DNA from: Periconia sp. R9002
Taxonomy: Eukaryota > Ascomycota > Dothideomycetes > Pleosporales > Periconiaceae
Reading direction: 5' to 3'
DNA: 64,000 nucleotides
NCBI GenBank assembly: GCA_023627715.1
Contig: JAMAHW010000049.1
Location: 62,001 to 126,000 of the forward strand
The first letter of the stretch is position 1; every line of letters begins with the position of its first letter. Position numbers and translations under genes: made by a program. Under the pieces are notes generated by a model. It saw only the letters and a list, made by a program, of their open reading frames with translations. It had not been told where the DNA came from and did not search any database. Of this stretch, positions 29,125-58,860 are shown one piece after another.

Positions 29125-29455
29125 AGAGTCCGTCTCATTTGTGCTGTGTTTTTTTCTAGAGCTAGACTTTTGTTGGGGTTTTTTTTTTGGAGGGGATGCG
29201 GATTTTTAGAGAAAATAGATATCTATCACGTTATGGCAGATATATTTCGAGGTTTTGAAGCCATTCATATAGAGGAAATGAATTAGTCGACGGGGACTTC
29301 AACGTCCCCCCTCCCCTCTTCCCTAACTTCCCTACGCCGTTCGGTTCATGGATGTATGTGTGGTTTCGAAATACGAGGAGGTTTTCTCATGTTTTTCTCA
29401 TGGTGTTTGTTTTTGAAGGGGTTTGGAACTGTGTGTGTTTGGGGGCGGTGGTGGT

Positions 29456-29474
29456 GATGGTGATTAGCACCGTC
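29456..29474 (+). other. stem-loop, first unit
   Basis: Arms GATGGTG and CACCGTC pair over 7 bp (one U-G), loop ATTAG. It lies upstream of the first TATA box, showing the array begins with a truncated unit. Confidence 0.75.
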
Positions 29475-29718
29475 CTGAGGTCGTCGTCGTCACCAAATAT
29501 CGTGTATAGGGACTATGTAATGTAGGGGAGGGGAGGAAAAGGGGTATAAATACCTCCCTTTTTGCCGCGTGTCTAGTTCTTTACACAATTTATTTCTTCC
29601 TTCCTTCTAATTAAAGCCTATAATCAGAATCACTTCATAGGTCTGCTGTTCTGTTCTGTTCTATTCTACCCTTTGTTACTAGGTTTAGTTTTTAAAATAG
29701 AGTGTGTATGTACATATT

Positions 29719-29752
29719 GACGGTGGTGGTGATGAACAGCACCGTCGTCGTC
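29719..29752 (+). other. stem-loop, 13 bp
   Basis: Arms GACGGTGGTGGTG and CACCGTCGTCGTC pair at all 13 positions if G-U is allowed (four wobble pairs), 8-nt loop. The complementary strand would carry A-C mismatches at the wobble positions, so the plus strand is the likely RNA. Confidence 0.8.
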
Positions 29753-30926
29753 GTCGTGTATGTAGTAAATATAGTGAATGTAGATTAGGTAAGGTGTTCT
29801 AGTAGCGTAGTTGGGTGGTATAAATACCCCTTCTCCTTCTCTGGGTCTTGTTCTTTACACTTTGTTTCTTCTTCTTCTTAGGTATAATATATGCTAATGT
29901 TGAAGTATGGTGTGCTTGTTGTGTGGATTCAAATGAGAATTACGAAAAATGTATGTTCTCTGTTCGTGGGGGTTTTTTAGGAGGGGGATAGTAGGGTGCA
30001 TGTATATGTGTGTTTGGGGATCGTGATGATAATGAACAGCATCGTCCCGAAATCGTCGTTGTTTTCGTCGCCAGATCACTTGTTGGTGTATGACGATTAT
30101 ATAAGGAAGCGTAGGTAAGGAAAGGGGGTATAAATACCCCCTTCCTGCCCTCCCTTTTCTTCTTTTTTCCTTACACGCTTATTGCTTCTTTCTTCTTTTA
30201 GTTAAAATTCTAATATGAAGACTAGAATGGTGTGGTGTGCTGTTCTGTCCTTTGTTTCTTCTTTTAGGGATGCGTGTGTATGTATATGTTGGTAGTAGTG
30301 ATGAACAGCATCGTCGTCGTCGTCGTCTTCGTCGTCGTCAAATATCGTGTAGATGTATAAGCTTAGGTAAGGTGCTCGGTAAGAAGCCGTGTAAGGGGGT
30401 GGGTTGTTGGGTATAAATACACCCTTCTTCTTCCCCTCTCTTGCTCTTCACGCTTTGTTTCTTCCTTCTCCCTTTTTATACACATCACATATGGAAAGAG
30501 AAAGCTGTGTTGTGTGGTTCCCAGTTTTGTGGGTGTAAATCAGCACTGTAGGTTTGTCACAGGCCATGCTTTTTGCTTTTGAAAGTTCTTAGGGGGTTGT
30601 ATGTACATGAATGTATTTGACGGTGGTAGTAATAGTGGTGATGATTAGTATCATCATCGTCAAATATCGTCGCCGGGTCATCGCTGTGCTGTGTGTGGAT
30701 CTTGTAAGGAAGCGTAGGGGGGTATAATACTCCCCCTCTTCTGCGGCCATCTATTCTACTTCTCTACACTTTGTTTCTTTCTCTTCTAATTTATAGAAGA
30801 TGCATTGGACATCGATGCTGTGTGGTTCGTGGTTTTGTGGTTTGAATTGGTCCTAAGCAAGATTCATGGTTTTTGTTTGGGATTTTTGAAACCCCATGTG
30901 TAATCGGTGATGACGGTAGTGATGAT

Positions 30927-30948
30927 AATGACGATGGGAATCGTCGTT
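30927..30948 (+). other. stem-loop, 9 bp
   Basis: Arms AATGACGAT and ATCGTCGTT, loop GGGA. One U-G pair; the C-G pair replaces an A-U or G-C pair found at equivalent places in neighbours, a compensatory difference. Confidence 0.8.
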
Positions 30949-31161
30949 GCATGATGTTTCACGTGTAGGTGAGTTGTGGATTATGTAATATATGGGGGTA
31001 TAAATACCCCCTTTTTTCTCCTTTCTTTTCTTGTTCCTTACATTTTGTTTCTTTTTTCATGTTAGTTATAAAAATGACGTTTCCAGATATCAAATGCTGT
31101 GCTTGTTGTGCTCTTCTGTGATTTTTAGTTGTGTAATTGTGTGGTTTTGTGATTTAGATAG

Positions 31162-31186
31162 GACGGTGGTGATGATTACCGCCGTC
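31162..31186 (+). other. stem-loop, 8 bp
   Basis: Arms GACGGTGG and CCGCCGTC, loop of 9 nt, all pairs formed with one wobble. The arm sequence differs from the GAT/ATC pattern of neighbouring units but complementarity is kept. Confidence 0.75.
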
Positions 31187-33691
31187 GCGAGGTCTCATCG
31201 CCCGATATGAGAAGTCTGAGTAGGGTTAGCGTAGCTGTGTGCTTGGGTATAAATACCCCTTCTTTTCTCGCTTCTATTATCCTTCACACTCTGTTTCTTT
31301 TTCTTATTTATAGAATTAGAACACCTCCGATGTATGCGTTGCATGCTGTGTTTTGTGCTTTCGAATCAATACCGCACTTTTCTATGGTTCTTCGTTTCGG
31401 TGTTTTCGAAGTCGTAAATATACATTAATCCCTATTCAAAAAATATACAAAGATGCATTCATGCTCTGTTGTGTGGTTCGTGGTTTCGAATCAGCATTTC
31501 ATGGTTCTTCGTTTCGAGGGTTTTGGAAACGTGTACATGTGTTTGGCGGTGATGATGATGATGATGATAGGTATCGTTATTGCTGGATATCACACATATA
31601 GGTAGATGAGTGGGTAGGTGGGTTTAAATACCCCCTTCCTGCACTCCTTTCTTTTTCACGCACTTTGCTTCTTTCTTCTTATCATATTTAAAATCCTTTG
31701 ATGGTATGGATATGGTGTGCTTGTTGTGTGCTTCGTGTATTTGAATAACGTCTCAGACACACTTATATTCCTTTTTAGACTTTGGAAATGCGTATGTACG
31801 TGTGTTTGGCGGTGGTGGTTAACGGTAGAGACGGTGATTATCATCGTCCTAAGGTCGTCGCCATTGTTGCCAAATATTGTGTAGGTAGGTGCTGATAGGG
31901 GTGCATTATGTAAGAGATTGAGGTATAAATACCTCCTTCTTTCTCGGTTCTCTTGTTTTACACCTTTACTCTTTTTTCTTATTATTTTTAAAAACTTTAT
32001 ACACCTATAGCGTGCTGTTCTGTTCTGTTCTGTTCTTTTATGTGCTATTATGTAGTTCGTAGTTTTGAACTATATCTATCTTATGGTTCTTCGTTTTAGA
32101 TATTATAATAGTGATAATTAGCACTGTCCTGTCGTAGTCGTCGTCGTTGTATAGGTAGGTGTTAAATCTGTGTATGTGTGGATTATGTAAGGAGTTAAGG
32201 TATAAAAACTTGTCTTTTTACGTACTTTTTTTGTTCTTTAAACTTTGTTTGTTTCTTCCTATATATAAAATCCTATTGCAGAATACATGCTGTGCTTGTT
32301 GTATACTCCGTGAATTTAAATTATATCTAGGAAGCGCTTATGTTCCTTTGTTTCGAAGCACCCAAGGGTATAGAAGGGTGGTGTGTTTAACGGTAGTGAT
32401 TAACGGTAGTGGTGATAATTAGAACCGTCGCCATCGTCGCCAAATATCTTATAGGTGTATGTGAGGGATTGAGGTATAAATACCCCCTTTTTTCTCGCTT
32501 CTGCGGTTCTTGTTCTTCACACTTTATTTCTTTCCTTTTTTTTCAAGTTAAACGTACGTCTATCAAGAGTGATGGTGTACTGTTCTGTGGTTGTGTCGTT
32601 CGTAGATTCGAAACGGCATTGTGCCCACTTCATGGCTTTTCGTTTTAGGATTTTTGGGAGAAGTTGTATGGGGTCTACAGGTGTATTTGGCGATGATGGT
32701 AGCAATGACAAGGTGGCAGTGGTGATGATTAGCCTCGTCATCGCCCGATATAAGTGATCTGCCTATGGATTAGGTAACAAAGCGCAGGTGGGTGGGAATA
32801 AATACCTCCTTCTCTCTTTGCCTCTGTGATTCTTCACACTTTGTTTCTTCTTCTGATTTATAGCCACAATGCGGCATTTCATCGCGTTATGTTGTTCTGT
32901 GGTTTTGAACTGGCAGTGTTTTTGTGGCATATTCCTTTGCTTTGGAGGCTTTTAAAGGGTGTACGTGTATACATATATGTGTGTATATTTAACAGCGGTC
33001 GACGATGATAATAGTGAGTATCGTCATCGCCAGGTTCATATCGTAGCTAGGTAGGTGTTAGGTATATGAGCATTATGTAAAGCTCCGTGTAAGGGGGAGG
33101 GTGGGTAGACATAAATACCCCCTCTTTCCTGCCTTCTACTCCCCTTTTTTCTTCACACACTTTGTTTCTTTCTTTTAGTTATAGAATTTCGACGGGGCAA
33201 TAAGATGGTGTTGTGTGCTTCGTGGCTTCGAATCGTCACTCCGTAAATCTCATGCTCCCTTGTTTTGGGGGGTTTGGAAGGGTGTACGTGTGTCATTGAT
33301 GTATACATGTCTGTATATTTAACGGCGGTGGACAATGATGACGATATCCGGCATCCTCATCGCCAGGTACATATCGTAGGTAGCTAGGTATGTAGGTGCT
33401 GGGTAAGCGCTGTGCTGCATATAGATTATGTAAGGAGTCGTAGATGGGTATGTATAAATATTCCCTTTTTCCTACCTTCTACTCTTCTGTCTTCTCTACA
33501 CTTTATTTTTGGTGCCTTCTTCCTTTATTTTCAAAAGTTACGATACAAAAATTGTATGTGCGGTGCTGTTCTGTGGTTGTATAATTTCGAATGTGCACTA
33601 TATTGTCCTGATGGTTTTTTCGTTTTGGGATTTTGTTTTTAGGATTTTTGGAAACATGTGTGTCTACGTGTTTGACGGCGGTGACGGCAGT

Positions 33692-33713
33692 GGTGATGAT
33701 GAGTATCGTCATC
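33692..33713 (+). other. stem-loop, 9 bp
   Basis: Arms GGTGATGAT and ATCGTCATC, loop GAGT. Two wobble pairs on the plus strand. Followed directly by the conserved CCAAATATC block. Confidence 0.8.
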
Positions 33714-36149
33714 TCCAAATATCCTAGGTACATAGGTAGGTGTTGCGTATATGAGGATTATGTAAGAAGCCGTAGGGTCAGTAGTATCATGTAAGTAGTT
33801 GGGTATAAATACAGCCGTCGTCCCCCTTCTCTGGTTCTTCACAAACTTTCTCTCTTTCTTTTCAGCTACAAAACAAGGCGACAGCGAAATGGTGTGTTTG
33901 TTGTGTCGTTGGTGGGTTTGAACTAGATGCAGGTATTTCATAGTTCTTTGTTTTGGATGTGATGGAAGTGGTGGTGGTGATTAGCATCATCGTCGCTCGA
34001 TACGAGGTGTCTGCGCGTAAGGAGTTGGGTATAAATACCCCCTCTTTTCCTTCCTTCTTCTCCCCCTTCTTCCTCCCTACACTTGTTTTCCCTTCTTTCT
34101 TCCTATTTTCAAACAATGAGAAACCCAATGTCACCAATGTCATGCTGCTCTGTTCTGTTCTGTTTTGTTAAGTGGTTCGTGTTTTCGAGTCCGCATTGAG
34201 AGTGTATCATGGTTCTTTCCGAGGGTTCTGCAATCCAGGTGTATGCGGCGGTGACGGTGATTGGCATCATCATTGCTAGGCATCGTAGATAGCTAGGTGC
34301 TGGGTGGGCCCGCACGTTGAAGGAAGTGGGCATAAATGCCCCCTCCTTCTCCCACTCCTTCTCTTATTCACACACTTTCTTCTTCCTTCTTCCTTCTAAA
34401 TTTCGAATTCTTGCAGCCTATGCCCTGCTGTTGTGTGCTTTGTGGGTAGTCTGAGAATCGGCATTGAGAGTGTATCATGGTCCTTTCGGAGACTTCTGGA
34501 ATTCATGTGTATGCAGCGGTGACTTTGATGACGGTGGTGACGATGATTAGCGTCGTTATTGCTAATATTACACGTGTAGGTGAGTGGTGAATGTGTTTGG
34601 ATCATATAAGAAGCTGTAGGTAAGGAAAGGGGTATAAACACTCTATTTTTTCCCCTATTCTCTTGTTCTTCACAGTTGTTCTTCCTATCTCCTAAAATTT
34701 GGTTTCAAGGTTGTGATTTGCACTCCTATGTGGTTTGTGGTTCGTGAGTGGTGGCAGTGTAGCGTCAAATCGGCACTGTCCATCATTCTCTGTTTTCGAG
34801 GGTTTTGAGAGAGATAGCGTACATATTTGACGGTAATGGTGATGATGTGTATCGTTATTACGATGTAGATATGTCATGTATATGCTAGGTTCAAATGCTG
34901 CTGTTTGTGGATTAGGTAAGACACAGTGTAAGGGGGAGGGTTTATAAATACCCTCTCTTCTTTCCTCTCTCCTTCTACTTTCTTTTTTACACTTCGTTTC
35001 TTCTTTTATTTTCCAAAATGTGAGTAAGTAAAGCTGGATGCTGTGCTTGTTGTGTGGTTCATGGTTTTCGAGTCGCACTGTGTCTACTCATGGTTCTTCG
35101 TTTTAGATGTGATGGTGGTGGTGGTGATGATGATGAGTAGCACCGTCGTTGGTGGGTATTACACGTGTAGGTCAGTTGTTCAGGTAGATGAGTGGGTGGG
35201 TCAGGAAAAGAGGTATAAATACCCCCTTCTTCCTTCCTTCTCTTCTTCTTTTCTTTTACACACTCGCCGTCCTGCTTTTTATTTCTTTTATTTTCTAAAA
35301 ACAAACGAAACTATGGCCCATGCTGTGTTGTGTGGTTCGTGATTTTCAATCAGCACGCATGTATTTCATGTTTCTTTGTTTCGGGGGGTCTGGGGGTGGT
35401 GATGATCAGCATTATTGTTGCTGCATATTACACACGCAGGGAGCAGATTTATTAGACATATCTTGTACGTGAATTGCGTAATCAGCCGTAGATAGGTAGG
35501 TATAAATACCCCTTTCCTTTCCTGCCTTCTCTTCTTCTTTGCTCTACACACTCACGCTTTTATTAGTTTAGTCCAAAAACATTGTAATCGTATCCATGCT
35601 ATGTTGCGTGGTTCGTGGCTTTAGATTGATATTGATTGCGTCTGCCTCATGTTCATTTTTTCGAGGTTTTCGAGGTCGTTTACATGTATGTGTACGTGTA
35701 TGTGTGTATTTCGTGACCACGGTAGTGATAGGAATGATGATGGTGGCGACGATGATGATATTTGGCGTCACTATTGCTAGGTATCGTAGGTAGACATGTC
35801 TTGGCTAGGTGCTAGGCCCTTGGTGCTCTTTCAAACCGTGGGTGCTTCAATCATGTAATGCAGGTCGGCGGGGGGTTGGCAGATGGGTATAAATACTCCT
35901 TCTTCTCTCCTCTACCATTTCTCACACACGTTTTCTTCTTTCTTCTTATTTTCTAAACACAACACATATCAATTCCATGCTGTCCTGTGTGATTCGTGGC
36001 TTCAAATTGTCACTGTGGGTGTCTCATAGTTCTTTGTACTAGAGGGGTTTGAAATATGTACGTGTGTGTTTGACAGCGGTGCTGGTGGTGGTGGTGACTA
36101 GCATCATCAAATATCATGTAGGTGTTGGGCAAGCGCTGTACTACTTGGG

Positions 36150-39100
36150 AATTATGTAAGAAATCGGTTAGAAATAACCCCCTTCTTTTCCCCTTCTCTT
36201 GTTCTTTTTTTCAGCGATTTCTAAATTGTACAAGACATTCGCCATGCCGTCCTGTGTGGCGTGATGTCTATCGACGTCATGTTTCTTAGTCTGGAGTTTT
36301 TGGAAACGTATATATATTCGGTTGTGGTGATGATATTTAGCATCGTCATAACCCAACATTCTATATACTAGGTACTTTATTCAGGTGGGTATGCGTAAAT
36401 AGGTTGAATACCCATTTTTTCCACCAATTCCTTGTTTTACACATTCGTCCGTTTTTTCAGCGATTTTCAAAATCCTAAAGGGGCCTGAAATGTCGTGCTG
36501 TGTGGTTTGTTGTCCATTCACGTCATGTTGCTACGTTCATGGTTTTTGAGAACATATATATATTACGCAGGAAGGACGACGAAGATGGTAGTGAAGATAG
36601 TATTTACCATCATCATCGTTAGTATTGTAGGTAGGTGCTGGCTAGGCCAGTACATGTGTTAATTATATAAGGAAGAGGGTATAAATACCTCCCTCTTTCT
36701 CCCTTCTCTTTTTGTTCACCTTAGTTCTTGTTTTTTCTCCGATTCATAAAAGATCTGGTATTTTTCGACATGTGCTTCGTTGTCCACTAAGTTTATGTTA
36801 CTACGTTTAGGCGTTTTGGGAATGTGTATGCAGATAACAATAGAATAACGATGATAATGATGATAATATTTACCATTATTATTGTTTGATAGTGTGGGTA
36901 GTTGCTCGTTCACGCTGTGTGTACGTGGATTATGCAAGCCAGCGGGTATAAATATCCCTTTCTTCTGCCCTTCTCTTCTTCTTTACACTCTGCTGTTATT
37001 TATTATTTTATTCTTATAAAACCAGATTTATAGAACTATATGATTCTCGTGGGTTGCGGATTGTGGTTAATAGGCTAACTAGTTCATGTTTCTCTATTTC
37101 GAAATTTTCGAAAACGTTTATAGGGGTTTGGGGTTAAGATTGTAACAATGTTAATGATAGTGGTGGTAAGATTTATCATCGCTGAAATTCCAAGTATATG
37201 TTGGAATTATTGATCACTATATTTTGGGCACACACGTGTGTGTAGATTAGGTAAGAAACAGTAGGTGGATGGGTATAAGTACTCCTTCTTTCTCCCCCTT
37301 TTACTCTTTTCTCCTTCTTTACACACTTACAGTTTTAGCTTTCTTTTCTTTCTCATAATATCCGCACTGGCCTTTCAACGTTGTTGTGTTGTTTGGGGTA
37401 GTTTAGTATATGTATAGTTGATACTTAAGTTTATTGCGTCGAGGTTTTTAGAATTACATGTGTAGTCAGCAGTGATGATGATGATTATCGTGGTCGTCGT
37501 TGATACGTACGGTACAAATGGGCTCCTTTAGGCTGTATTATGTAAGAAGCCATGTGGTAGTACGTAGGTAGAGAAGTATAAATACCTCCTCTTTCCCCTT
37601 CTCTTTGTTTTCTCCCTTTACGCATTTATCGTCTTCCTTTTTCTCTTCATATCTAAATCTCGCCGGTTCGCTCACAATGGTGTGCTACTGTGTAGCGTGT
37701 GATCGTACCTACGTCATAATGTTTTTGATATGAGAGATGAAATCCGATGTGTATTTTTTAGCAATGATGATGGTAATGATTAACTTCACTGGATATTGTT
37801 AGTATATAGCGTACGTATACACTAGGTAGGGAGTCTGTTGCGGACACGTGCGTGTGTGAATTAGGTAAGGAAGAGTAGGTAGATGTGTATAAATACCCGC
37901 TTCTTTTGTCGTAACTCCGGTTTACTCCTTTGTACTTTACTTTCTTCATTCTGTTTAAATCAACCTGTAACTCTTGGATGCTGTGCTGTTCTGCGGCGGA
38001 GTGATGTTGTACTCCAGGCTTAAGGCATCGTTCTATGTGATTGTAAATAACAGCAGTAATAATTACTACTATCTCACCAAATATCATATATTTACTGCAT
38101 TTCGGCGCCTATATATGATTTTACACACGCACGTGTGTGGCGTAGTTGAGGAATCCGGGGATAAATACTTTCTCGACTTATTTCTCCCTTCTCCTCTTCT
38201 TCTTCTCTTTCCTTACACAATTGCGGGTTTGCTTTCTCTTTCTCATTATAAAAAAGACAAGAAAACTTCGTGATGCTGTGCCGCGATCAATGCAGAAAAA
38301 GTATCAATTGATGTTTTCGTGGAGTGTGGGTTCTGGTTTGTAAGCCACATAGTTCATGTGGTTTCTTATAGAAGTGTTGGAAACGTGTACGTGGGTGATG
38401 ATGGCGATGATAGTGTTTAGCGTCGTTATTGCTAGATGATATAGGGAAGTGCTGAGTCAATGCTGTATGTAGAGTCGATAATATAGGCGTAGATAATTAG
38501 ACTGATATATGTACGCCCCCCTCTTCCTTACACCTCCTTCTCTCTCTCTATGGAATTGCGAGTTTGCTTCTTCTTTTAATTTCTACAAAAAATCGCTAGA
38601 ATTTCATGTCATGTGTGCTCTGCGTTTTGTAGTTGTATAGGAGAGGAGCTTACATTGCATGTACTTCATGGTTTTTTTTTGGTTGTATGTGACGATGGTG
38701 ATGATGGTGGTGATACGTCTTACCATCGCGCCAGTGTTGAATATGTAGCTGCACGTATGTGTATTAGCTAAGTAAGGCGTAGGTATTTTGATGAGTATAA
38801 TCACACCCTCTCCTCTTTCTTCTTCTCTACACACTAAACCGTCTTTTTATCCTGTAAAACAATAGGTGACAAACGAATGGCTGCTGTGTTATTGGTTTCG
38901 AATTGGCATTGCATGTGTTTCATGTTTCTCTGTTTTACGTACTTTTGAATTGTGTACATTTGTGTATTTCGTCGTGGTGACGATAGCGATGACGGTATTT
39001 GGCATCGTAATCGTCAGTTATTTTAGGCATGCCGCAGGTAGGTGCTGTATGTGGATCAAATATTGTAGGTGTAGGTAGGGTATAAATACCACCTTCTTCT

Positions 39101-47059: not shown

Positions 47060-48158
47060 TCACTGTTTTGCCAGAACGTCCGTGATAGGTTTAATACTCT
47101 CCTCCAACCCCGTCCATCCATGTCCATCAATCCTCTTCAACAACTCCTCCGCTCTACCGTTCGCAATAACACTCTTGTCCCTTCCAAGTCCCTCAAAATC
47201 AGCAACGAAGCTCTTGTCAGGATACATCTGGCGGAACAGAGCCAGGAAATCATTCCAGTTGAACGGTTTCGCAAACGTGAACAACCTCTCGCTCTTCACG
47301 TCTTCGTACACCAGTGCAGCGACGTGAACGGCAGCATTATCATCCACGTTGATGTAGTACTGTGGGGGGTTATCTTTCAGATCTGCTTCGCCTTCGCCTG
47401 AGAATCCGCCCCACAGCGCTTTGACCCAGCCCGTGGTCGAGGGGAATCCTTGGTGCTCGACGGAAAGAATTTCGCCAAGATTGGCATTCGGGAGAACGGT
47501 GTTGAGCGTGATGCCGGTCTTGTCGTTGCGGATGAACTCCCATGCAGCTTGTTCACCTTGCGTCTTGCTTGCGGAGTATACGTTCAGTTTACGCTCCACG
47601 CCTTCGTATGGAGGTGGTGCCCATGCAGCTTTGACAGCGTCCTCATTCCAAGTCTTCTCGTCCATCGTGAAGACTTTGTTGGGGATTGGGTTGGAAGCGG
47701 CCGTAGAAGAGGAGGTGAGCACAAATCTCTTTACGCCGGCTTTCGCGGCTGATTTCAGTGCGTTCTTGGTACCTTCCACTACGGTGGGGACGGCGACGTT
47801 GGGATCATGGAGTTGCATGACGGGTGTCGCGGTGTGGATGAAACCGGCAACACCTTGAGCGGCCTCGTCGAAAGCGCCTTCGGTAGCCATATCGGGGACT
47901 TCGACCAGCTCGACAGAGCCTTTTCCGTATTGCGACTCGAAGTAATCGATGAGCCAGGAGGAGCGTTGAATGTTCCGCACCGTGCCTCGGACCTTGGTAA
48001 TGTTAGCGTATGCACAGAGGAGGGAGATTAAAACTCACCTTGTATCCGTTTCTCAATAACTGCTTGACAACATGGCTGGCGATGAAGCCATTTGCGCCAG
48101 AGACAAGCACACGTGACCCCTGCGGGATAGCTAAATTGTCCGATGCGGTGACAGTCAT
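47060..48158 (-). CDS. NAD(P)-dependent extended SDR reductase (aldehyde/dihydroflavonol-reductase-like)
   Basis: Exon 1 is 48158-48039, intron 48038-47993 (46 nt, donor GTGAGT, branch CTAAC, acceptor AAG), exon 2 47992-47060; 350 residues. The Rossmann dinucleotide-binding motif GANGFIA is at residues 21-27 and is followed across the splice junction by GYKVRGTVRN, the usual beta2 region whose Arg favours NADP. Catalytic Tyr179 and Lys183 lie in NVYSASK. The family (GRE2/ketoreductase/dihydroflavonol reductase group) reduces aldehydes and ketones in the cytosol. Substrate cannot be told. An in-frame upstream ATG at 48224 would add 22 residues; I prefer 48158 because the Rossmann strand starts about 15 residues later, as usual. 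The AAG acceptor is less common but is the only one that joins the two halves of the motif. Confidence 0.9.
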
Positions 48159-49460
48159 TTTGAGAGGAGAAGATTGCGATATTCCAGAGGAAATGTTTAG
48201 ATTTAAGATCTGTGAGCTTGCCAAATGCCGCCTGTTCCTTGGTGCATTGCGAACGACGGTGCGATCACCGCTTTTTTATACATGCATACCCAAGTAGGTA
48301 GTTTGCAAAGTAAATCCAGGCAGCTGTTTTCCCCCGCATCGTGATGTCACTGTTCCAGCATGCCCAGAGTGAATAAGCGATGGTAAGCGCATCAACTGTG
48401 CAGTTTGTATACAACAACAAAAACTAAGCGAATCACACCATGGCCCTTGCAGCAGAATAACCTTGTCGCAATAGCTATAACCCACCAATCACTACTTTCC
48501 TGTAGACTGTAAAAAGGAAAAATGCTCGAAATAATGCGCAATAGGAAATACCGAGATTAAAGCGAATTAAGTGAAAAACCGGATACGAGTGTCTTGGCCA
48601 TGCTGTCAGCTCTTGGCCAATTACTTGCATGTAGGGTGGCGTTCTTTTCAGCTCATGGATAGCACTTGAGCACATAGCAAATATGACTGTGGCAACTATC
48701 GTGAGCTCGAATAAGGAAATGGGCACATCGAGAAGATGCAATATGCGTTCATCATGCATGCATACCAATGGGTCAAATGCATGTGATGCCACTTTTTAGC
48801 GTGAAGTAACAGTGATGAATGTAGTTGTCGGGTATCAGTGCAGAATTCATGGAAAGTTGAAAAATAGTCATTGCAAAGCATAGATTAATTGCGGAAGCGA
48901 TACCGGCAGAGCTCGCAATACTTTCCTTGGCCAGGACGGCAACACGGGTAAATTTGGCGTACAGAATTCATGAGATTCACATACCCTTCCTCCACTTTCC
49001 TCTTTTTCTCATTGTCGCATATATGTCTCTTGACCTAAAGAAGATCTTAGGAGCAATCAATTCCACTACGAGGGGCTGTACAGCATTTTCAATCACCTCC
49101 ATGAAAGAGCTTATCATTCTCGAGCATTAAACAGAGTAATTTGATAAGTAAAGCCCGAGATCAGAGACCACCATTTCAAGACAAGTTTGGGGATGAGATT
49201 TCAGTCTTTCTCTAATAGCTAGTTAGGTGAGTAAAGAGTTTGCAAAGCGGGCGACGGTCTTTAGTATATACAACTGCTAGATAATTCTATGTTTCCAGGA
49301 AAACTTCGTTTACGTAAATCAAGAAAATTGACAACTAAGGATATTTGATCAGAAGTATTGAAATTTCCAGCAGATGACACTATATGAACCTCCGTATATG
49401 TTGTGTTGCAATAAGATCATTGACTATCTAGCGCTTCCCAGTCATACAGAGCACGCGATA
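48159..49460. other. 1.3-kb intergenic, no gene seen
   Basis: AT-rich mixed sequence with only short open frames. There are no array units here, although arrays lie on both sides of this gene cluster. Confidence 0.55.
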
Positions 49461-51197
49461 TTAGTAGCGAGCCTGTCCTGCAGAGGCCATGCGCTCCGCC
49501 GCCGCTGCCATGTCGGCTTCGGTTGGTCGTTGTATAATCATGAGGTATAGCACATCCTGTCGTATCCATGTCAGCACGCTAGCATTGTGCAGGAACGTGT
49601 GGATCTCGTTCAGATGGAGCCATGTCGATTCCACTTACATCCTGGAAAAGCTTCTTAGCCCCGGCTACCAATGATAGCGGGCCGATGCCGCTACCACCGA
49701 TGCCACCCTGACCACGTCCGGCGAGTCCAGTGCCACCTCGACCACCACTGGTCAGTTCCATCCGGCCACCTTGATGTGAAGAATCCCCTCCTCTTCCTCC
49801 GAACACGTCCTCTCTACCTCTTCCCATTCTATCCATTCTGCCTCTTCCCAACCCCAGTACCCCTTCGCGGCCCCGGAGACCACCCCGCATAGCAGATGTC
49901 GAGTCAGCGTTGCCGAATTGCCTGCCAAAGCGTCCCTGGATGAAGCTGAGATTCGTTAGTCAAGGTGCATGTCAAAAAGTTATGGTAGTGGTACTCACCC
50001 CCCGGTCAACAAGGCAATGGGATCGCCACTGCTAGCGGGGTGGTTGGGGTCTGCATATCTCGATGAGAAGCTCTCCTTGCCGGTAGCATTAGCGAGGGCG
50101 CTATCCGGGTTCTCGCCAGCCCACTTTGCACGGGCTCTCTTGTCCATGTATTCGGAAACGAATTTGCCACTTCGCTTAATGGCAGCCTGCTTTTCATCGG
50201 GCAGCTCGTCAAGAGCAGGGAAGACGAGAGGCGCGGTTTGCGGCCATTCAAACGACGTTGCACCGCTGGAGCTCTCAAACCGATGGCGTGACTTTGAGGC
50301 ATCGGATGCTTTGGCAATGGACGACTGCATGTCAAACTCGGCCGTGGTTAGCATGTCTTTCTGGTTGGGCTTCCAGGTCATAATTAGGGCGACGAGGCCT
50401 CGGGGGGCAAAGAAGTCTTGATTGACGTGATCGAGGAAGCTGTTGGTCTTTGAGCGGCTGTGGAGCTCGCTGGCTGCGTCGGCCACCTTTTTGACGGCGA
50501 TGGATATCATGATCGTGAATGGCTCGGGGACCGCCTGCCCAGCGAAGGCGGCTAAATTGATGGCCTGGATCCAGGGGCTAGGGGCAAGCGATTTGTTGAG
50601 TTTGTCGAGGAAGTCGAGAAAGGTCGCTTGGTCAATGCCTACGTGTTCGAGGAGAGGCGAGTAGGCGCGGACAAAACCCTTCGTGCGAGACTCTGGGCGT
50701 CGCTGGGTGATGACCACGGGCAGAGGGAGCTGGGTGGCCGAGTATACTGGGGCTTGGGCATGGGCGATGACGAATGAATGGGCAAGGTCAGCGACTTGAT
50801 CGTCGGTAGTGGCAGTTGGTTTGTGTTCAGGCTCGGATAGTTGATCTTGGGCTTCATCGAGTTCCCAGACGGCCTCGTCCATCTGCTGGGACAAGTGGGC
50901 GTCCTGTTGCAAGTTGTGCCTCTCCTGTGCTTGTGTTGTTGTGTCATTGTCGTTATTATCACCCTCATCTTCCGGCGGCTGCGTTTGAGAAGCCTTTTTT
51001 TCCTTGCGGTGCTGGTAAGTCTCCGAGGCAAGACCGATGCCAGCAGCAAGGCCTCGCACAAGGAGGCCGACGGGGCCGCCGGCAGGAGGTTGGCGGCGGC
51101 CAGTGTTATCACGTTGCATACGGTTCATTGGGGAGTTCGGGTGAAGAGGGATAGAGGGAATGGGGAAAGAAGAGGGGGTAATGTTGGATATGTGCAT
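49461..51197 (-). CDS. conserved fungal protein with Gly/Arg-rich segment, three exons
   Basis: Exons 51197-49999, 49945-49639 and 49556-49461 give 533 residues. Introns of 53 nt (branch CTAAC, acceptor CTCAG) and 82 nt (donor GTAAGT, acceptor CGACAG) keep frame exactly. Residues ~30-60 carry GGPVGLLVRGLAAGIGLASE, a short apolar, Gly-rich segment. Then come an acidic Gln/Asp-rich disordered stretch and a globular core at residues ~165-285 with a PWIQAIN motif. The second exon adds an RGG-like Gly/Arg-rich tract (about residues 415-485), and the C-terminus is short and helical around VLYLMIIQRP. Proteins of this layout are widespread in Pezizomycotina and usually unnamed; I know no function. 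A start at the internal Met24 (51128) is possible. It is divergent to the DUF7702-like gene. Confidence 0.82.
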
Positions 51198-51476
51198 GTA
51201 GGGCTGCTGCGGACGAGATGAAGATAGTGCATCTCGATCAGGCCTGAGATGCGATTGGCTGGGGGCCGGGGGCCAACCCTAACCCGGGAGAGCCATGACC
51301 CAAGCCCTCGGGTCCGCCAATACCAAATAGCCCCGGTTGGCCTCGTGCCTATTTAGGACAGTATTGCGATAGGTACATGCCGATACAAGCTTGATTAATG
51401 CTTGTTTGCCTTTCCAGATCTTCCTATATCTACCTTGTCCGCCGCCGAGACTGTAGCAGCACAAACATCCACAATC
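51198..51476. promoter_or_regulatory. divergent promoter between the Gly/Arg-rich protein gene and the DUF7702-like gene
   Basis: 279 bp between the two outermost start codons, the only room for both core promoters. No specific element recognised. Confidence 0.45.
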
Positions 51477-52478
51477 ATGACGCCCCATACGGCTGTCGGC
51501 ATTGCTACACTCGTCTTCTACGCCCCCATCACTCTCTTCGCCCAGTATAACGGTTTTCGCTGTTGGAAATATGGCCCTCGTATATCCTGTTATATGATCA
51601 TGGTCTTTACGCTTAGTATGTCCGGTCTCCTTTCTCTTCTCTGACAACCTCGTGCCATGCTGACTGCCCACTACAGTACGACTCGCCGGCGGCGCCTTGC
51701 TCGTATCTGTCGAAAAGGACTTGAGCACTGACAACGCTGGGATGATCAAGGCTACCTACATCCTCATCAATCTGGGTATCGTGCCCCTGCTCGCCGCCTA
51801 TGACGGGTTTTTGGCCCTCATGTACACTGCTCCTTCTCCATCGATTGGCTTGCATCTTTTACTGAATCCTCTACACTAGATCAAAAGAAAACTTTCCGAG
51901 GGCAGCCCTCCTTCGACTTCTCCACCGCGCCTGCGCTTGTCTCATTCTGGTCTCTACCGCCCTGCTCATCGTAGCCGGAACTATGACAGGGAAAGTCAAC
52001 CAGGCCTCCTTGCAGTCTGCCCTTTACAAAGTCGGTTACTTTGTCTTTCTCGCCGTCTTCGTTTTAGCCATTCTGTTGAGTCTGAGGATGACTCTGTTCT
52101 ACAGTAACCAAGTCAGGTCCGATCATCTCACCGTAGGTCCCGCGTTTTTGCCCCACATCACAACCCACTCACGCTGACCACCCCCAGATTGTGACCTGGC
52201 TCCTTTTAGCCTCGCCTTTCCTCGCCTTGCGCACAGTGTACGGCATACTCGGCATTTTCGAGGCCACAGGCGCTAACATGTTCACCTCGATGTGGAGCTC
52301 CCTGTTTGGCTCGGCTACGGCTTTTGCTCTCATGGCGCTTTTGCCAGAGTACATCATCGTGTGCATCTACATACTCATCCTACGCTTTAGGGTCAAGTCC
52401 TGCAAAGAGACGGAGCTTTTTCACAGCGAGGGTCGTAACGCCGGTAGCTACGCAATGGGGCGCCATGGAAGAGGCTAG
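51477..52478 (+). CDS. DUF7702-like seven-helix membrane protein, four exons
   Basis: Exons 51477-51615, 51677-51821, 51880-52132 and 52188-52478 give 275 residues. Introns of 61, 58 and 55 nt (donors GTATGT, GTACAC, GTAGGT; acceptors CTACAG, ACTAG, CCCAG) preserve frame throughout. The opening HTAVGIATLVFYAPI, apolar segments at intervals of about 30-40 residues, and ASPFLALRTVYGIL followed by the final two helices are the pattern I associate with the fungal DUF7702 family. This predicts a plasma- or endomembrane protein with about seven helices and a short cytosolic tail. Function is unknown for the family. An upstream in-frame ATG at 51402 could add 25 residues. It lies just before array 2, about 160 bp from the first array landmark. 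Confidence 0.85.
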
Positions 52479-52639
52479 TTACGATGATGACGGGAGAAAT
52501 GTAGGCGCCTGCAGAGCTTCATTCATTGTATTGGATCAGCGCATGACATGGAAATTCGAGGCAAAGCCGAATGATAGTAGATATATGTATTTTGAGCTGG
52601 GTTTTGTCTATTTAGATCAATTACAGATCAGCTGTATTA

Positions 52640-55380
52640 CTATTAGATCATGTTTCAATAAGAAAATACATGTGGATTTTTGTATTGCTTTCCGCGTAAA
52701 CAATAATGCTGATATGCATCATCATCATCATCATCATCGTCGTCGTCAGGTACACATGTGAACACACCAGATAACCAAATATAAATACCCATTGCCGTCC
52801 CCGTATCCTCCCTTCTTCTCTTCACATGTACATTGTGCAACGCAAAATCTCGTTGTTAAAAAAAGGACATAGCACCATCCAATGTTCCCGGCCCGTACTG
52901 CGGGGTCACACTCTCTAAACACATGATTTTTTTCGAAAGTAGAACGTATTCAGCGATGCTCCTCATCATCATTATCATTATCACATGTGCTCAGGCATCA
53001 GTAGTATCATGTACACACGTGAGCATACCAAATGATGAGGTATAAATACCACCTTCTTCCCTTCCTTCCTTTGCTCTTTACATCCTGTGGGACCTGATAA
53101 CATTAATCTAAAAAATGGAAGGAGTGATGCTATGTTGGCGGTTTGTTTTGTGGTGCCACACTCTTGAAACAGATGATTTTTTTTTTCGAAACTACATGTA
53201 TTCGGCGATGCTCATTATCATCATTACCATACAGGCATCGTCGTAACGCACCCACAAAAGTATCCCAAATAATCAGATATAAATACCCACGTCTCTCCCC
53301 TTCCTCCTCCTCTTCTCTTCACAAATTAAGAGAGCTAATAACATTTATTCAGAAACAACAAGACAGACTCGCTCATGCTGCTTCTCTGTGTGGCGGTGCC
53401 ACCCTATCCACACACATGATTATTTTTTTCAAATCTATTCTTTTCGAAACTCAATATATCTAATGATGTATCTCATCACCACTATTATCATCAACACCAC
53501 GCACCCGTGTGATCCCACCCAGCTACCTACATACATAGGTCCTTACCAAGCACAAGTATAAATACCTCCCTCTTTCCCTCCTTCTTTTCTCTTTCTTCAC
53601 AAATTGGGGGAGGTGATAATATTGATCAAAAAAATGGGCAACAAGCAACAATGTTCCTGGTCTGGGTGTGGTGCCACCGTATACAAATACATGATTCTTT
53701 TTCGAAACTATCCAATGCTGCACCTCATCATCTTCATCATCATCACCATCACCACTACGGTCCCACGTGATGTACCTAGCTCCTAAGCACCTGTGGACGA
53801 GTATAAATACCTCCTTCTTTCCCTCCTTCCTCCCCTTCTTTTTTACATACTGTGGTAGCTAATAATATGATTTTAGTTATCTTTTAAAAATGTAAAGATA
53901 CGCATGATGGTTGCTGGCCTAGTTTCTAGTACTTACCTCATCCACATACATGATTCTTTTCGCAACTACATACCTGTAGATATTCAGCGATAATTCTCCT
54001 CCTCATCATCACCACCAACACCACGTAAACACATGACCTGACTAATCCCCTAACGTTGGAAGCACGAGTATAAATACCTCTGTCTTTGCCTCCTTCCTCT
54101 TCTTCCTTCTTTATATATTCTGGGGGCTTATAATATTACATGATTTGAGTTATGTTTTTAAAAACGAACTGTGGAAAGCTATCATGGTTGTTGCTGGTCT
54201 GTCTCGTGCTACTACAATATGTATTCACACGATTCCATGATGTTTTTGAATCGATTCAACGCTGTAACTCATCATCATCACCACTATGTATAACCGCCAC
54301 GTATAACCGCCACGTATCTACGTGATTTCAGCTAGCTACCTACCTCCCTCCTAAGCAGGAATATAAATACCGTCCTTTCCCCCTCCCTCTCTTGTCTTCT
54401 TTACAGGAAGTGAGGGAGTTGGTAAAAATAAAAAAAAACAATCAGTAGTTCGACGAATGATCGTTTGCGTGGCTCGTCCTCTAGTGCCATCCTGTTCTAT
54501 CCGCACCCGCGATTTCTATGATTCTTTTGAAACAATTTAATGCTGCACATCACCATCATTATCACCACCGTCGATGATCCATCAAGTCATCAACATGTAC
54601 ACACGTGATCTCACCCACGTCCCTCTTAAGTAAGAGTATGAAACATCGCAGAGTATTGCTAAGCCAGAGTATAAATACACTTGTCTCTCCTCTTCTCTCC
54701 TTTCCTTACATATCCCGGGATTTAATCATATTTTTCTTAAAAAATTGCCTAAGCGTCGGAGTGATGTTCTGGCTCCGTTCTGCACTGTTACACTAACCCC
54801 ACGCACAATCCATGATTTCTTTTTGAAACCTATCTAATGCTGTATCTCAACACCATCATACCTGATCATAATCCTCATCATTCATGAACATATACACATG
54901 TGACCCAAACTAGCCACATACATACCAAGGGCGAGTATAAATATGCCCCTCTTTCCCCCCTTTCTTCCCTTTTCTTCTTCACAAAGTGAAAGAGCTGGTA
55001 AAAAACCCTAAAAAACGCACTTCTGAACCTGAATGTGCCTGGTCTGTTTCGTGTGCTACACTATCCCCGCCCACGATTCCATGATTTCTTTTTCGAAACC
55101 TATCTAATGCTGTACCTCATCATCACCACCATCACAAGATCATCATTATCACCACTACGCACTCTCGCTTCCAGGTGGCATACCCGCCTCCCTCCCAAAC
55201 ACGCACGAGAGTATGAGTTTGATGTTGATCCTCACAGAGTAACTACCCTGGGTGTCGACACATGGTGGGGGCACACTGGGTAAATGTCCTTGGCCGGGAC
55301 GGGCACACAGGCAACTACGCACGAGAGTATAAATACCCACCTCCCCTCCTTCTCTTCTTCTTCACACACATCTGGATATC
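52640..55380 (+). repeat. array 2, part A: subfamily with one-sided ATC tract
   Basis: Ten units, TATA at 52780, 53041, 53278, 53557, 53802, 54069, 54362, 54670, 54936 and 55328, every one an exact TATAAATA. The order is TATA, CT tract, CTTCAC or TTTACA, a purine stretch with AATAxxATT, then GGTCTGxxTxGTGCTAC, CATGATTxTTTTTCGAAAC, ATGCTG, a run of CATCATCATCACCAC, TACACACGTGA and the next TATA. The CATGATT-TTTTTCGA block is the counterpart of CATGGTTCTTCGTTTCGA in array 1. The GAT-rich 5' arm of the hairpin is missing in most units while the ATC-rich side remains, so this subfamily seems to have lost or reshaped the stem. Period 240-390 bp. Confidence 0.88.
55201..55330. mobile_element. small insertion with 14-bp direct repeats inside a TATA box
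   Basis: ACGCACGAGAGTAT occurs at 55201-55214 and again at 55317-55330. The second copy runs into AAATACC to complete the unit's TATA box; the first is followed by unrelated sequence. The intervening ~102 bp contain a core (55225-55261) that closely matches 43422-43460 in the array 1 interruption, both including CTACCCTGGGTRTCGACAC. Direct repeats plus a shared core suggest a short non-autonomous element or slippage-mediated copying. It has no coding capacity and no clear terminal inverted repeats. Confidence 0.5.
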
Positions 55381-57974
55381 TTTGCCACCAATAACTCAAC
55401 CATAAACCCTTTCATGGTTCCGCGCCGGGCTGTGTCGTTGTTTCCGCATACATACATAGACGTCGGCGTCGTGTTTTTGGTGTTTGAATGGTGGTGGTGA
55501 TCGTCATTAATACCATCGATGTACACACGTGCTCACCCATCTCTCTCCTAACAATCACCTATAAATACCCTTCCCTTCCTTTGTTCCCCCTTTCTCCTTC
55601 ACGCACGTTTGGATATTTAGAGTACGAATAAAAATAACTGACGGAAAGGCAATAGTTTCGACGGTTATGCGCTGGATTGGCTTGTGTCGCGGTTTTGGCA
55701 TACATGTACGTGAGCGTCTTGATTTTCGAAAGTTCGAAGTGGTATTGGTGATGATTGTCATCTTCAGTCGTTTGAAATCAATGATATGTAGATACGTGCT
55801 CTCACCCACCTATCTCTCAAGCAGCCCAAGTATAATACCCACCTCTTTTCCCTCTTTTATCCTTCTTCTTTACACATCAATATCTGGATATCTTTGATAC
55901 TAAAACAGAAGTGAGAAGACCTCGATAGCTCTGTGCTGGGCTGTGGCGCCGTTTTCGCGTACATACATGGACGTCTTGTTTTTGAGAGTTTAAACAGTGG
56001 TGGTGGCGATGATCACCACCACACCCCTACAACCTAGCCCATCTCCCAAACATGCACGGGTATAAATTCCCACCTCTTCTTTCTTTCCCCTCTCCTTTCT
56101 TCTTTACATACATCTATATTTGTTTTAGTAGGAATAAGAGATCGCAGTTCGCAAATACCATGTTTCTGTGCAGGGTTGTGTCCGGTCAGTGTTTCCGTGT
56201 ACATGTACATAGGCCTTATGTTTTTTAAGAGTTTTGGACGGTGCTGATCAGTATCATCGTCGGTCGTTTGTATTACAGCATCGTCATTAATATATGCACA
56301 CGTGATATACACATCTCCTTCCTAACTAAGAAGGAATATAAATACCTCCTTCTTTTCCTCCCTTTCTTACTTCTTCTTCACATCGCGGCTGTATAGCTTT
56401 AGTACATATGAAAACAACTTATAAAAATGCAATGATTAACGCGATCATACGCTGGGTTAGTTTGTGTCGATGTTTTTACATACATGTACGTGAGTCTTGA
56501 ATTTTTTGAGATTTTAAGCAGTGGCGGTGATTGTTATCATCGTTGATCGTTTATATGAAACTATTGAGAGTCATCAACAGCAATTGATATTCACATGTGA
56601 CCCACCCCAGCTACTCACCAGTGCAAGCACGTTGACGAGTATAAATAACTCCTTCTTTCCCCCCTTCTCCTTTTTCTTCTTTACACACATCTAAGTATCT
56701 TTGGTACAAATAAACGCACGCTCCCAAGTCGTTATGGTTCCGCGCTGCGTGGCTATTTCCCACGTACATATACGTGATCAGCTTGTTTTCTTTTCGAGGG
56801 TTTGAAGTGGTGGTGGTGATGATAATCGGTATTGTCAGTGGTCTGTATTAAAACATTAATCGCCATTGATATATAGATACTTAATCCCGCCTATCTCCCT
56901 CCTACATAGCTAGGTATCTGTAAGCAGGGGTATAAATCCCTACCTCTCCCTCCTTCCTCCTTTCTCCCTCTTCTTTACACACTAGATATCCAGATATCTA
57001 TATTACGAGTAAAAATAGATTAAGGAGCTATTTGATGGTTGGCGCTGGGTTGTATGTGATTGATGTTTCTGTGTACATGTACGTCGGCATTGGGTTGTTA
57101 GGAGGTTGAATAGTAGTGGCGATGGTCGTTATTGTCTGTGGTTTGTATCAAAAAATTGATCGTTATTGAATTGTAGACATGTGATCCCCATTATCTACTA
57201 AGCAAATATAAGTATAAATACCTCCTTCTTTCACCCCTTCACCTTTTTTCTTTACATACCAGACAACTGGATATCTTTAGTACGAATAAAAGAATTGTTC
57301 TGGCAAATTGATGGTTCTGCGCGGGGTTGTTTAGCTATTTTCGCATACATGTACGTGAGTGTTGTATTTTTGAGAAGGTATGAAAGGTAGTAGTAATGGT
57401 GGTGATGATGCTTGTTATTGATGGTTGTTCATATCAAAACATTGATTGCACATGTGATCCAGATGTCGTTACTAACATGTACCCACAACACTTAACCCAG
57501 CTTACCTGTGCAAGCACATTGACGAGTATGACTACCTCCTTCTTTCCCCTTCCCTCCTTCTCCTTTCTTCTTTACACGCGGCTGTATAGCTTTGGTACTG
57601 ATAAAAAGCCACATGAAAGCAAATCAATGGATCTGCGGTGGGTTGTGTCGTTATTATCCGCGTACATGGATATCGACGTTGTGTTTTAGGAGGTTGGATA
57701 GTGATGATGACGACGATTATCGTTGGTGGTTTGTATCTGATCGTCATCAATATATACACACGTGCTCTCACCCATCTCCCTCCTAAGAAGGAATATAAAT
57801 ACCCCCTTCTTTCCCTCCTTCTCTCTCTTTTCTTCTTTACACGCGGCTGTATAGCTTTAGTACGAATTAAAAAATTGTCCGTGATCTCCTCAATGGTTCT
57901 GCGCTTGGTTGTGTCGCTGCTTTCGCATACATAACTACATGTACGTGAGTGTTGTATTTTCTAAGAGCTTTAAA

Positions 57975-58007
57975 TGGTGGTGGTGGTGATTATCATCATT
58001 ACCACCA
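57975..58007 (+). other. stem-loop, 15 bp, array 2
   Basis: Arms at 57975-57989 (TGG repeats then TGA) and 57993-58007 (TCATCATTACCACCA) pair at all 15 positions, three of them G-U, with a 3-nt loop. This is the longest perfect stem I found. Confidence 0.85.
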
Positions 58008-58242
58008 CTACCCATCAAGTCATCAACATGTACACACATGAAGTCACCCATATCCCTCCTAAGTGGGAATATAAATATCTCCTTCTTTCTATCATCCTCC
58101 TTTCTTCTTTACACGCGGCTGCTTAGCTTTAGGACAAATAAAAAGCTATACTTATTTGGGAGTATGGTTCTGGGCTGGGTTGTGTCGCTGTTTTCGAAGA
58201 CATTTACGCCGATGTTGTGTTTTATCGCCAGTCTGAACCGTC

Positions 58243-58274
58243 GTGGTGGTGATGATTATCATCGTCATTATCAC
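58243..58274 (+). other. stem-loop, 14 bp, array 2
   Basis: Arms GTGGTGGTGATGAT and ATCGTCATTATCAC pair at all 14 positions with several G-U, loop TATC. It occupies the same place in its unit as the hairpins of array 1. Confidence 0.85.
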
Positions 58275-58739
58275 TACCATCCATCAAGTCATCAAGATGT
58301 ACACATGTGACCTAGCCTAGCCCATTGCCTGGCCAAGCACCAGTATAAATACCACCCTCTTTCCCTCCTTCTCTCTCCTTTCTTCTTCACACATTAATAT
58401 CTGGATATCTTTAGTACCAATAAAGAAAGACGTACAACGCCATATGGTTCTGCGCTCTGTCCGGTTGGTGTTTTTCGCATACATAAACGTTGACGTTGTG
58501 TTTTTGGGGTTCTAAATGGTGGTGGTGGTGATGATGATGATGATTATCACCGCGAAGCAACGTCTACACCCACTGTACCAACACCGTAAGCATAAACAGG
58601 CATTTTAGATGAAGGAACGCTGTATGGAGTTCCTTTCTTCGGACGTTGAGAACGGAGGTTTCGGTGTGTGCATGTAGATGCGAATGTAGAGGGGTAGGTA
58701 TGATGGATACAGAGGATCATGGTACGTTTGAAGTTTGCC

Positions 58740-58860
58740 GTGTGATACCTAAATAAAAGAAAAGTTTCATGAGGTGGATAGCTTTTGAGTTTTAAGTTCT
58801 TGAAACGATGGTGATGATCCACTTCTGCATCATCATCGCGCGGAACCAACATCACGTCTA
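58740..58860 (+). repeat. degenerate terminal unit of array 2
   Basis: TTTCATGAGG, a TTTTGAGTTTT block and a GATGGTGATGAT arm opposite ATCATCATCGC repeat the unit order, but no TATA box precedes them. This marks the right edge of the array. Confidence 0.55.

Follow-up and report, generated by a model that had tools for sequence, protein, structure and literature searches.

A fixed-length, variable segment recurs in same-strand module arrays of a Periconia genome

Introduction

What do the units of a long, same-strand array of TATA boxes in fungal nuclear DNA have in common, and what might such an array produce? The array lies in a 64,000-nucleotide stretch of Periconia sp. R9002 DNA (hereafter the window), in which the original prediction described about 78 tiny transcription units, all on the plus strand and each with its own TATA box. 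Among the matches listed in the literature searched, we found no description of arrays of this design in fungi, in line with the earlier statement that no such fungal family is known.

Results

A same-strand array of promoter-bearing units

Counting as a unit each matrix match accompanied by a CT tract, our promoter scan of the window gave 76 matches on the + strand, 73 of them within 29545-58344. The array and its strand are therefore as predicted, with 73 units instead of about 78. These units, of ~280 bp, form two + strand blocks at 29.5-46.7 and 52.7-58.6 kb. In block 1 (29340..46700, 52 promoter units), TATA boxes start at 29545, 29819, 30129, 30412, 30723, 30999, 31248, 31623, 31924, 32201, 32475, 32797, 33110, 33453, 33804, 34030, 34331, 34633, 34943, 35214, 35501, 35888, 36169, 36680, 36947, 37274, 37577, 37888, 38160, 38796, 39081, 39381, 39945, 40211, 40522, 40802, 41095, 41352, 41633, 42247, 42492, 42812, 43989, 44286, 44531, 44821, 45099, 45369, 45753, 45955, 46235 and 46468. 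In block 2 (52700..58580, 21 promoter units), they start at 52780, 53041, 53278, 53557, 53802, 54069, 54362, 54670, 54936, 55328, 55560, 55831, 56061, 56337, 56640, 56931, 57213, 57527, 57794, 58070 and 58344. Of the 72 TATA-to-TATA gaps, 64 measure 230-392 bp. One gap, of 6.3 kb, spans the interruption between the blocks (46700..52600), which carries two protein genes on the - strand, opposite to the array: a reductase-like gene (47060-48034) and a conserved gene of unknown kind (49995-51278).

The box TATAAATA occurs 56 times in the window against 1.54 expected (maximum of 5 in 100 shuffles), and between 29545 and 58351 it is found 53 times on the + strand and once on the - strand, bearing out a recurrence far above chance. 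On the - strand, the matrix scan gave nine matches with a top score of 14.4, compared with 28.2 on the + strand, and at least seven of the nine are the reverse of nearly palindromic + strand boxes. Scores below 14 are also seen in several + strand units. Most units keep the predicted order of TATA box, CT tract and a TTTACAC-like putative start site ((C/T)ACAC). A TTTCGA block is found too, in variable form. With Tandem Repeats Finder, no array of ~280 bp emerges in the window, and mean column identity across the 73 unit heads is 28%. The near-identical tandem copies of satellite DNA are absent, in line with the view that this is no ordinary satellite.

The hairpin fared less well. Its mean best stem score exceeds that of shuffles (8.46 versus 6.83), but only 20 of 73 units reach a score of at least 9 (11 of 219 shuffles), and by eye one arm is absent in many units at 52.8-55.2 kb. 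As a core element we rejected it: G-T versus A-C pairs number 186 to 98 over all best stems (112 to 53 in strong stems), and because shuffled stems give 451 to 190, there is no sign of selection on RNA pairing.

A module with a segment of fixed length and free sequence

The shared core is neither the hairpin nor the promoter, but a module consisting of an A-run, 17-19 unconserved bases (the spacer), an ATG and a G/T-rich stretch. In one example unit, all on the + strand, the TATAAATA box (58070..58077) is followed by a CT tract ending in the start-like site TTTACAC (58078..58114), the A-run that forms the left frame of the module (58140..58144), a 19-nt variable segment (58145..58163), the ATG and G/T-rich stretch that form its right frame (58164..58189), a TTTTCGAA block (58191..58198) and an imperfect hairpin (58242..58281). 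This spacer has no second copy in its own genome at up to two mismatches. Both the fixed-length segment and the clusters elsewhere in the genome had been missed in the earlier reading.

A strict finder placed 36 spacers on the + strand of block 1 (29372..46566) against two antisense: 29372-29388 (which precedes the first TATA), 29890-29906, 29934-29952, 30208-30226, 30799-30814, 31075-31093, 31324-31342, 31444-31460, 31694-31711, 32271-32286, 32553-32571, 32614-32631, 32870-32888, 33187-33204, 33537-33555, 33874-33888, 35019-35037, 35302-35319, 35580-35595, 36473-36489, 37022-37039, 37658-37676, 38593-38610, 38860-38876, 39449-39466, 40010-40029, 40932-40952, 41712-41728, 42570-42588, 44063-44079, 44616-44634, 44912-44930, 45190-45206, 46037-46055, 46330-46347 and 46549-46566. 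Block 2 (53116..58163) has 10 on the + strand against one antisense: 53116-53131, 53635-53650, 54165-54183, 55016-55032, 57016-57034, 57292-57310, 57377-57395, 57608-57626, 57875-57892 and 58145-58163. The interruption has none on the + strand and one on the - strand.

In the 43 Mb genome that contains the window, we read more than 10 loci of the same design but diverged sequence. Each cluster has one orientation, shared by modules and promoters; the loci were found via promoter patterns, and the link between promoter and module rests partly on that choice. At two of them, C1 and C21, a single promoter stands ahead of dozens of modules ~55 nt apart. The predicted maintenance of many short promoter-bearing units thus stands in part: the core promoter is kept on one strand while the rest diverges, and the architecture recurs elsewhere, but a promoter per unit is not general. 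Judged from the DNA, a uniform satellite would account for the conserved promoter and recurring architecture less well than would short units whose transcription is maintained. By eye, C21 modules look more degenerate with distance from the promoter, which is not so at C1; we make no claim from this.

Some loci depart from the pattern. At four (L022, L024, L025 and L028), promoter-like matches occur, yet neither strand has more than one module. The promoter scan of L034 gave two matches on each strand, and that of L035 one match opposite to the module strand, another scan giving one on the module strand. At C1:1158 kb (L031), the finder gives one module, with additional ones seen by eye only. 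Across the whole genome, a strict module pattern has four matches (control, one) and a looser one 28 (control, six), which include several simple TG repeats that lie outside arrays. A similarity search with C21 array DNA, scored on one candidate contig of its own genome, matched only C21 itself.

Across the loci read, the finder gave 311 sense-strand modules against 15 antisense, with spacers of 17-19 nt in 261 of the 311 and nearly all of them unique; the finder itself favours a length of 18. Dropping the G/T condition, AAAA ends 17-19 nt before an ATG 306 times on the sense strand and 69 times on the antisense, and seven other three-base distances counted in the same way give 26-72 on the sense strand. 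Among 240 G/T-rich ATGs, A-run-to-ATG distances of 17, 18, 19 and 20 account for 25, 42, 54 and 13 cases, and no other distance between 3 and 60 is represented more than 10 times. Again free of the G/T condition, the G/T fraction after ATGs with AAAA 17-19 nt upstream is 0.750, compared with 0.582 for other sense ATGs. In modules called by the finder, the G/T richness of the right flank is partly built in, and just past the scored stretch the fraction is 0.595.

Spacers differ even where their surroundings are related. In 105 module pairs with homologous flanks (79% identity on the left, 84% on the right), spacer identity is 0.517, against 0.516 in random pairs, and reaches 0.8 in none. An earlier flank comparison, which included one overlapping parse, gave 0.521 versus 0.516 over 164 pairs. 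When seven 19-nt blocks were compared in 17 pairs selected on their flanks, the spacer alone lacked excess identity (z of -0.1, others 4.7-10.5). A leave-one-out control, which free end gaps and low-complexity matches confound, gave little or no excess identity for blocks on the right-hand side of the spacer too. As a set, the spacers are as diverse as shuffled ones, except for one pair sharing 15 positions. A counter-case is the top-scoring duplicated pair, outside the finder set, which shares 17 of 19 spacer letters.

Candidate RNA classes, targets and partners

Several known classes were tried and rejected. A miRNA-type precursor is not indicated, the longest run of complement to a spacer being 5.81 in its own transcript and 5.79 in another (150 modules). 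For box C/D snoRNAs, which have box D (CTGA) next to the guide and box C (TGATGA) ahead of it, two of 311 modules carry CTGA in the 10 nt that follow the spacer and two of 311 carry TGATGA in the 30 nt that precede it. As coding or antisense-coding fragments the spacers fit less well than as intergenic DNA. Rfam gave no matches in the window and 11 loci, and no tRNAs were found in the window. Predicted unpaired probability of the spacers is 0.402 in native context and 0.406 when swapped (120 modules), slightly below that of the flanks (0.455). Were the RNA to start at positions -19 and -18, there would be no 5′ U preference (T of 0.28-0.32).

No target was found in the sequences searched. Second copies in the genome were not found beyond chance for the three of 311 spacers searched, and all 311 spacers against 149 kb of non-array DNA gave one 15-nt match, the reversed control being otherwise alike with a longest match of 13. 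Scanning IMG/VR with the promoter pattern yielded no matches. The genome encodes five Argonaute loci; a TnpB/Fanzor-type protein, searched through the single domain PF07282 (TnpB/Cas12-type), gave no matches in it.

Discussion

We tentatively favour a reading of the arrays as Pol II precursors of modular guide-like or small RNAs. Pol II would transcribe the loci into non-coding RNAs composed of modules, each an A-run, a variable 17-19-nt segment and an AUG with a G/U-rich stretch; function would reside in the variable segment, which would be excised or used in place as a guide or small RNA, and its partner most plausibly one of the five Argonautes. Transcription, processing, target base-pairing and Argonaute loading are steps that we infer. 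Pointing this way are the sense excess at 17-19 nt, the peak in A-run-to-ATG distance, the 311 to 15 strand bias, the random-level spacers between homologous flanks in both pair tests, the shared orientation of promoter and module, and the Argonaute loci themselves. Against it stand the lack of a target match in the sequences searched, of a 5′ U preference and of a precursor hairpin, spacers that are not more open than their surroundings, and the duplicated pair that keeps its spacer.

Neutral drift in an unconstrained gap also predicts much of the same pattern, and the main rival, possible though doubtful, is a two-part protein-binding site on RNA or DNA. Its contacts would be the A-run and the ATG with its G/T-rich stretch, and the spacer, needing length only, would drift without carrying information. 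Fixed length with random sequence follows directly, and the duplicate retaining 17 of 19 letters, the closer fit of spacer 3-mers to intergenic than to coding DNA and the apparent lack of selection on spacers to be either paired or open agree with it. Yet flank blocks up to ~60 nt away keep excess identity while spacers sit at the random level, in pairs chosen on those flanks; moreover, a promoter-oriented module and a G/T-rich right part of no fixed order point to RNA contacts more than to DNA ones.

It is unlikely that the arrays are the decaying, functionless remains of an old minisatellite family that duplication had spread, with conservation as residual similarity. Tandem units with divergent neighbours, visible duplications of one to several units and the degeneracy of promoter-distal C21 modules, as judged by eye, would suit it. 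However, the TATA box, CT tract and start-like site are retained in several clusters as the rest drifts, and uniform decay would not erase letters yet spare length.

It is improbable that the arrays act as DNA, as clusters of binding sites forming an enhancer, decoy or chromatin element with transcripts as by-products. A TTASTAA-like element, resembling a Yap1-type bZIP site, does lie 21-47 bp upstream of the TATA in C60 (9/12), C15 (12/17), C22 (7/13) and C12 (6/13), with no mirror-control matches in any, but it is at control level in the window (2/73, mirror 2), C1a (3/11, mirror 3) and C3 (2/11, mirror 1). Dozens of modules per single promoter at C1 and C21 also speak against this account, which leaves the module unexplained. 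That each ATG starts a short peptide is hardly credible: the distance from the start-like site to the ATG is fairly constant, and 37 of the 45 window spacers having an upstream TATA start 65-96 bp after it, but T and G alternate in the right flank with a period of two rather than three, modules are irregularly spaced and their distances are not multiples of three, and by eye in-frame stops interrupt several units.

CRISPR arrays of bacteria and archaea alternate conserved repeats with unique spacers of near-constant length; Cas proteins accompany them, and their spacers match invading nucleic acids. The loci described here likewise combine a conserved frame, unique spacers of near-constant length and a single orientation, with a promoter at one end at some loci. 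They differ in being fungal nuclear DNA with 17-19-nt spacers, in the separate promoters of most window units and in having no match to PF07282, the sole Cas-type domain searched; near-identical direct repeats are absent, as the frames share an A-run, ATG and G/T content while their letters vary. A quite unlikely extension of the favoured reading is a eukaryotic nuclear repeat-spacer system convergent on CRISPR, in which Pol II arrays acquire or rewrite spacers faster than frames diverge. The spacers would then form a changing store of RNA guides directed at viruses, transposons or rival nuclei, for use by the resident Argonautes or by some unknown effector.

Other comparisons are partial. Fungal microRNA-like RNA loci share the setting of a fungus with Argonautes and possibly Argonaute-sized RNAs; their mature strand lies in a stem of the precursor, but no hairpin here pairs a spacer with its own predicted transcript. 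Type I piRNA (21U-RNA) genes of C. elegans are monocistronic, carry the GTTTC Ruby motif and yield a capped precursor of 28 nt (PMC6436959); they too are many tiny clustered loci, each with its own upstream motif, and Pol II would be the polymerase here as well. The arrays differ in their TATA/CT promoters, in spacer starts that show no U preference and, at some loci, in the sharing of one promoter by several modules. A promoter for each candidate small RNA is found in most window units but not in the C1 and C21 arrays. Bacillus tandem repeats are constrained more in size (52 or 20-21 nt) than in sequence, and their transcription into small RNAs is discussed (PMC8161180); constant size with variable sequence is common to both, the Bacillus case being bacterial.

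Some 300 modules at more than 10 loci of one fungal genome seem to be undescribed in the literature searched, even if the slot proves to be a mere gap in a binding site. A slot that keeps its length while its sequence is free, that recurs hundreds of times and that in many units has its own predicted promoter, has the look of guide systems. If the slots are guides, this fungus would keep a large set of RNA specificities, to our knowledge unlike known fungal RNAi loci, and a eukaryotic CRISPR-like bank would become a testable question.

Promoter units in the window

We counted 56 copies of TATAAATA in the window, where 1.54 would be expected. A matrix scan combined with a CT tract identified 73 units, all on the plus strand and split between a block at 29.5-46.7 kb and another at 52.7-58.6 kb, bearing out the original prediction of recurring same-strand TATA units. 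Past the TATA box come the CT tract and then, mostly at 30-60 bp, a TTTACAC/TTCACAC-like site, an arrangement that we take to resemble the Pol II core promoter and start site of filamentous fungi. TATA boxes follow one another at 230-392 bp in 64 of 72 gaps. Across the 73 aligned unit heads mean column identity is 28%, the nearly invariant columns being seven of the TATA box plus a C and an A; divergence among the units is such that Tandem Repeats Finder detects no array of them in the window. Rfam and ARAGORN gave zero matches there.

One window protein has its best named relatives in Curvularia (82%), Parastagonospora (77%) and other Pleosporales. Between the blocks, a conserved protein without a Pfam match (49995-51278, minus strand) has relatives in Pleosporales, Apiospora and Xylaria. 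A PALP-domain gene of the cysteine or cystathionine synthase type is broken at 28330-28410 by four unread codons and a C-rich run (28353-28408), probably an assembly gap. A run of 54 T lies at 7274-7327.

Related arrays in the same genome

Additional loci of this design are present elsewhere in the one genome searched (42.9 Mb, 267 contigs). Searching it for TATAWAWA-N22-50-TCTTYACAC gave 58 matches, compared with 2 for the reversed control, and 51 of the 58 fall in clusters on contigs C1 (1308-1313 kb), C3, C12, C15, C22, C49 (which carries the window, at 62001-126000) and C60. Array loci were located via their promoters, and our counts cover the loci read, a part of all arrays: C1 at 1307-1313, 1335-1355 and 1158 kb, C12 at 169-180 kb, C22 at 235-241 kb, C21 at 392-397 kb and, on the plus strand, 264 kb, C33 at 304-306 kb (minus strand), C60 at 147-152 kb, C15 at 399-406 kb, and C3 at 72-81 and 54 kb. 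In multi-promoter clusters, promoter-like matches lie nearly all on a single strand (17 versus 0, 14 versus 0 and 13 versus 1 at loci L030, L018 and L015).

Within 21-47 bp upstream of TATA, a TTASTAA-like element precedes 9/12 promoters in C60, 12/17 in C15, 7/13 in C22, 6/13 in C12 and 3/9 in C1b (at -27 to -29), with a mirror control of 0 in each. In C1a and C3 its frequency matches or nearly matches the control, and in the window it is at control level (2/73 promoters, mirror 2). Where other clusters have TTASTAA, many block 2 promoters (52740-58330) are seen by eye to follow a ACACGTGA/CACATGTGA-like sequence.

A module with a spacer of constrained length

When 434 ATG sites with G/T-rich sequence after them are pooled, A peaks sharply at -23 to -20 (up to 0.62), positions -18 to -2 show no conservation, C is weakly favoured at -1, and T and G alternate 3′ of the ATG. 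We refer to this A-run, unconserved spacer, ATG and G/T-rich stretch as a module. With no G/T condition, AAAA ends 17-19 nt upstream of 306 sense versus 69 antisense ATGs, and seven other three-base distances give 26-72; G/T content is 0.750 after the ATGs so spaced versus 0.582 after other sense ATGs. A count without length preference, made before 240 G/T-rich ATGs, placed the A-run 17, 18 and 19 nt away in 25, 42 and 54 cases and at any other distance in at most 13. A module finder, slightly biased to 18-nt spacers and with the G/T-rich right flank partly built in, returned 311 sense and 15 antisense modules, 261 of the 311 with spacers of 17-19 nt; eleven other 9-10 kb stretches held 0-4 per strand. 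Window spacers with an upstream TATA start 65-96 bp after it in 37 of 45 cases. A second, weaker slot may lie 19 nt after T(C/T)GAA, a distance seen in 7 cases where no other exceeds 4.

The prediction of one TATA per unit holds for most units in C49, C12, C60 and C22, but not at C21 and C1. In C21 a single promoter stands ahead of 31 modules within 5.2 kb, and in C1 a single promoter at 1345114 precedes 63 modules by strict count (5 antisense) or 82 by relaxed count (11 antisense), with 41 of 81 module gaps at 45-64 nt. Inside these two arrays (L012, L036) there were 0 further promoter-like matches. C15 (34 modules, 17 promoters) and C3 (25 modules, 12 promoters) have about two modules per promoter. 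Elsewhere, locus L021 (C3:828-838 kb) carries 12 modules and locus L035 (C106:46-47 kb) carries 7, in each case on a single strand with 0 on the opposite one; locus L022 (C206:1-9000) has a good promoter match and 0 modules by the finder.

Spacers diverge where their flanks align

From 221 modules we drew 105 pairs with BLAST-significant left and right flanks. Mean flank identity is 79% and 84%, an excess partly built in because pairs were selected on flanks; the spacer was not a selection criterion, and its identity is 51.7% versus 51.6% in random pairs under the same alignment, with 0/105 pairs at 80% or more. In a 299-module set (109 pairs at E 0.05, 17 at E 1e-5) spacers were again at random level, and of seven 19-nt blocks compared the spacer alone lacked excess identity. 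Spacer pool diversity equals that of shuffled spacers, except for one pair sharing 15 positions. Judged by these alignments, spacers do not follow their frames. A counter-example comes from C22, where the duplicated pair with the top score retains 17/19 spacer letters; one of its copies has no A-run, and the finder missed it as a pair. Spacers can thus be inherited, and are afterwards lost or replaced more quickly than other parts.

Guide or ruler

Constrained length with free sequence is one of two things: information, as in a guide, or a ruler that sets the gap between two contacts. Nothing alike appeared among the matches listed from open PMC papers. The ruler is a somewhat doubtful explanation; several observations speak for it. 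Three of the 311 spacers were searched genome-wide and no target was found; all 311 against 149 kb of non-array DNA gave nothing clear (one 15-nt match, longest in control 13). Spacers lack pairing in cis and a 5′ U, and the C22 pair kept its spacer. The balance shifts slightly from guide to ruler because spacers are not predicted to be more open than their flanks, and because part of the G/T richness of the flank comes from the finder's own scoring. CRISPR-like adaptive acquisition, another account of such diverse spacers, seems improbable.

Five Argonaute (Piwi domain) loci were found by position in this genome, on C6, C15, C59, C161 and C1; the C1 locus consists of two adjacent pieces, one with an internal stop. 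These loci, the hundreds of module copies, the match between module orientation and strong promoters, and spacer diversity at the random limit while neighbouring sequence is still alignable favour a guide, a reading that we hold tentatively. The spacer would then act as information, as a guide or small RNA.
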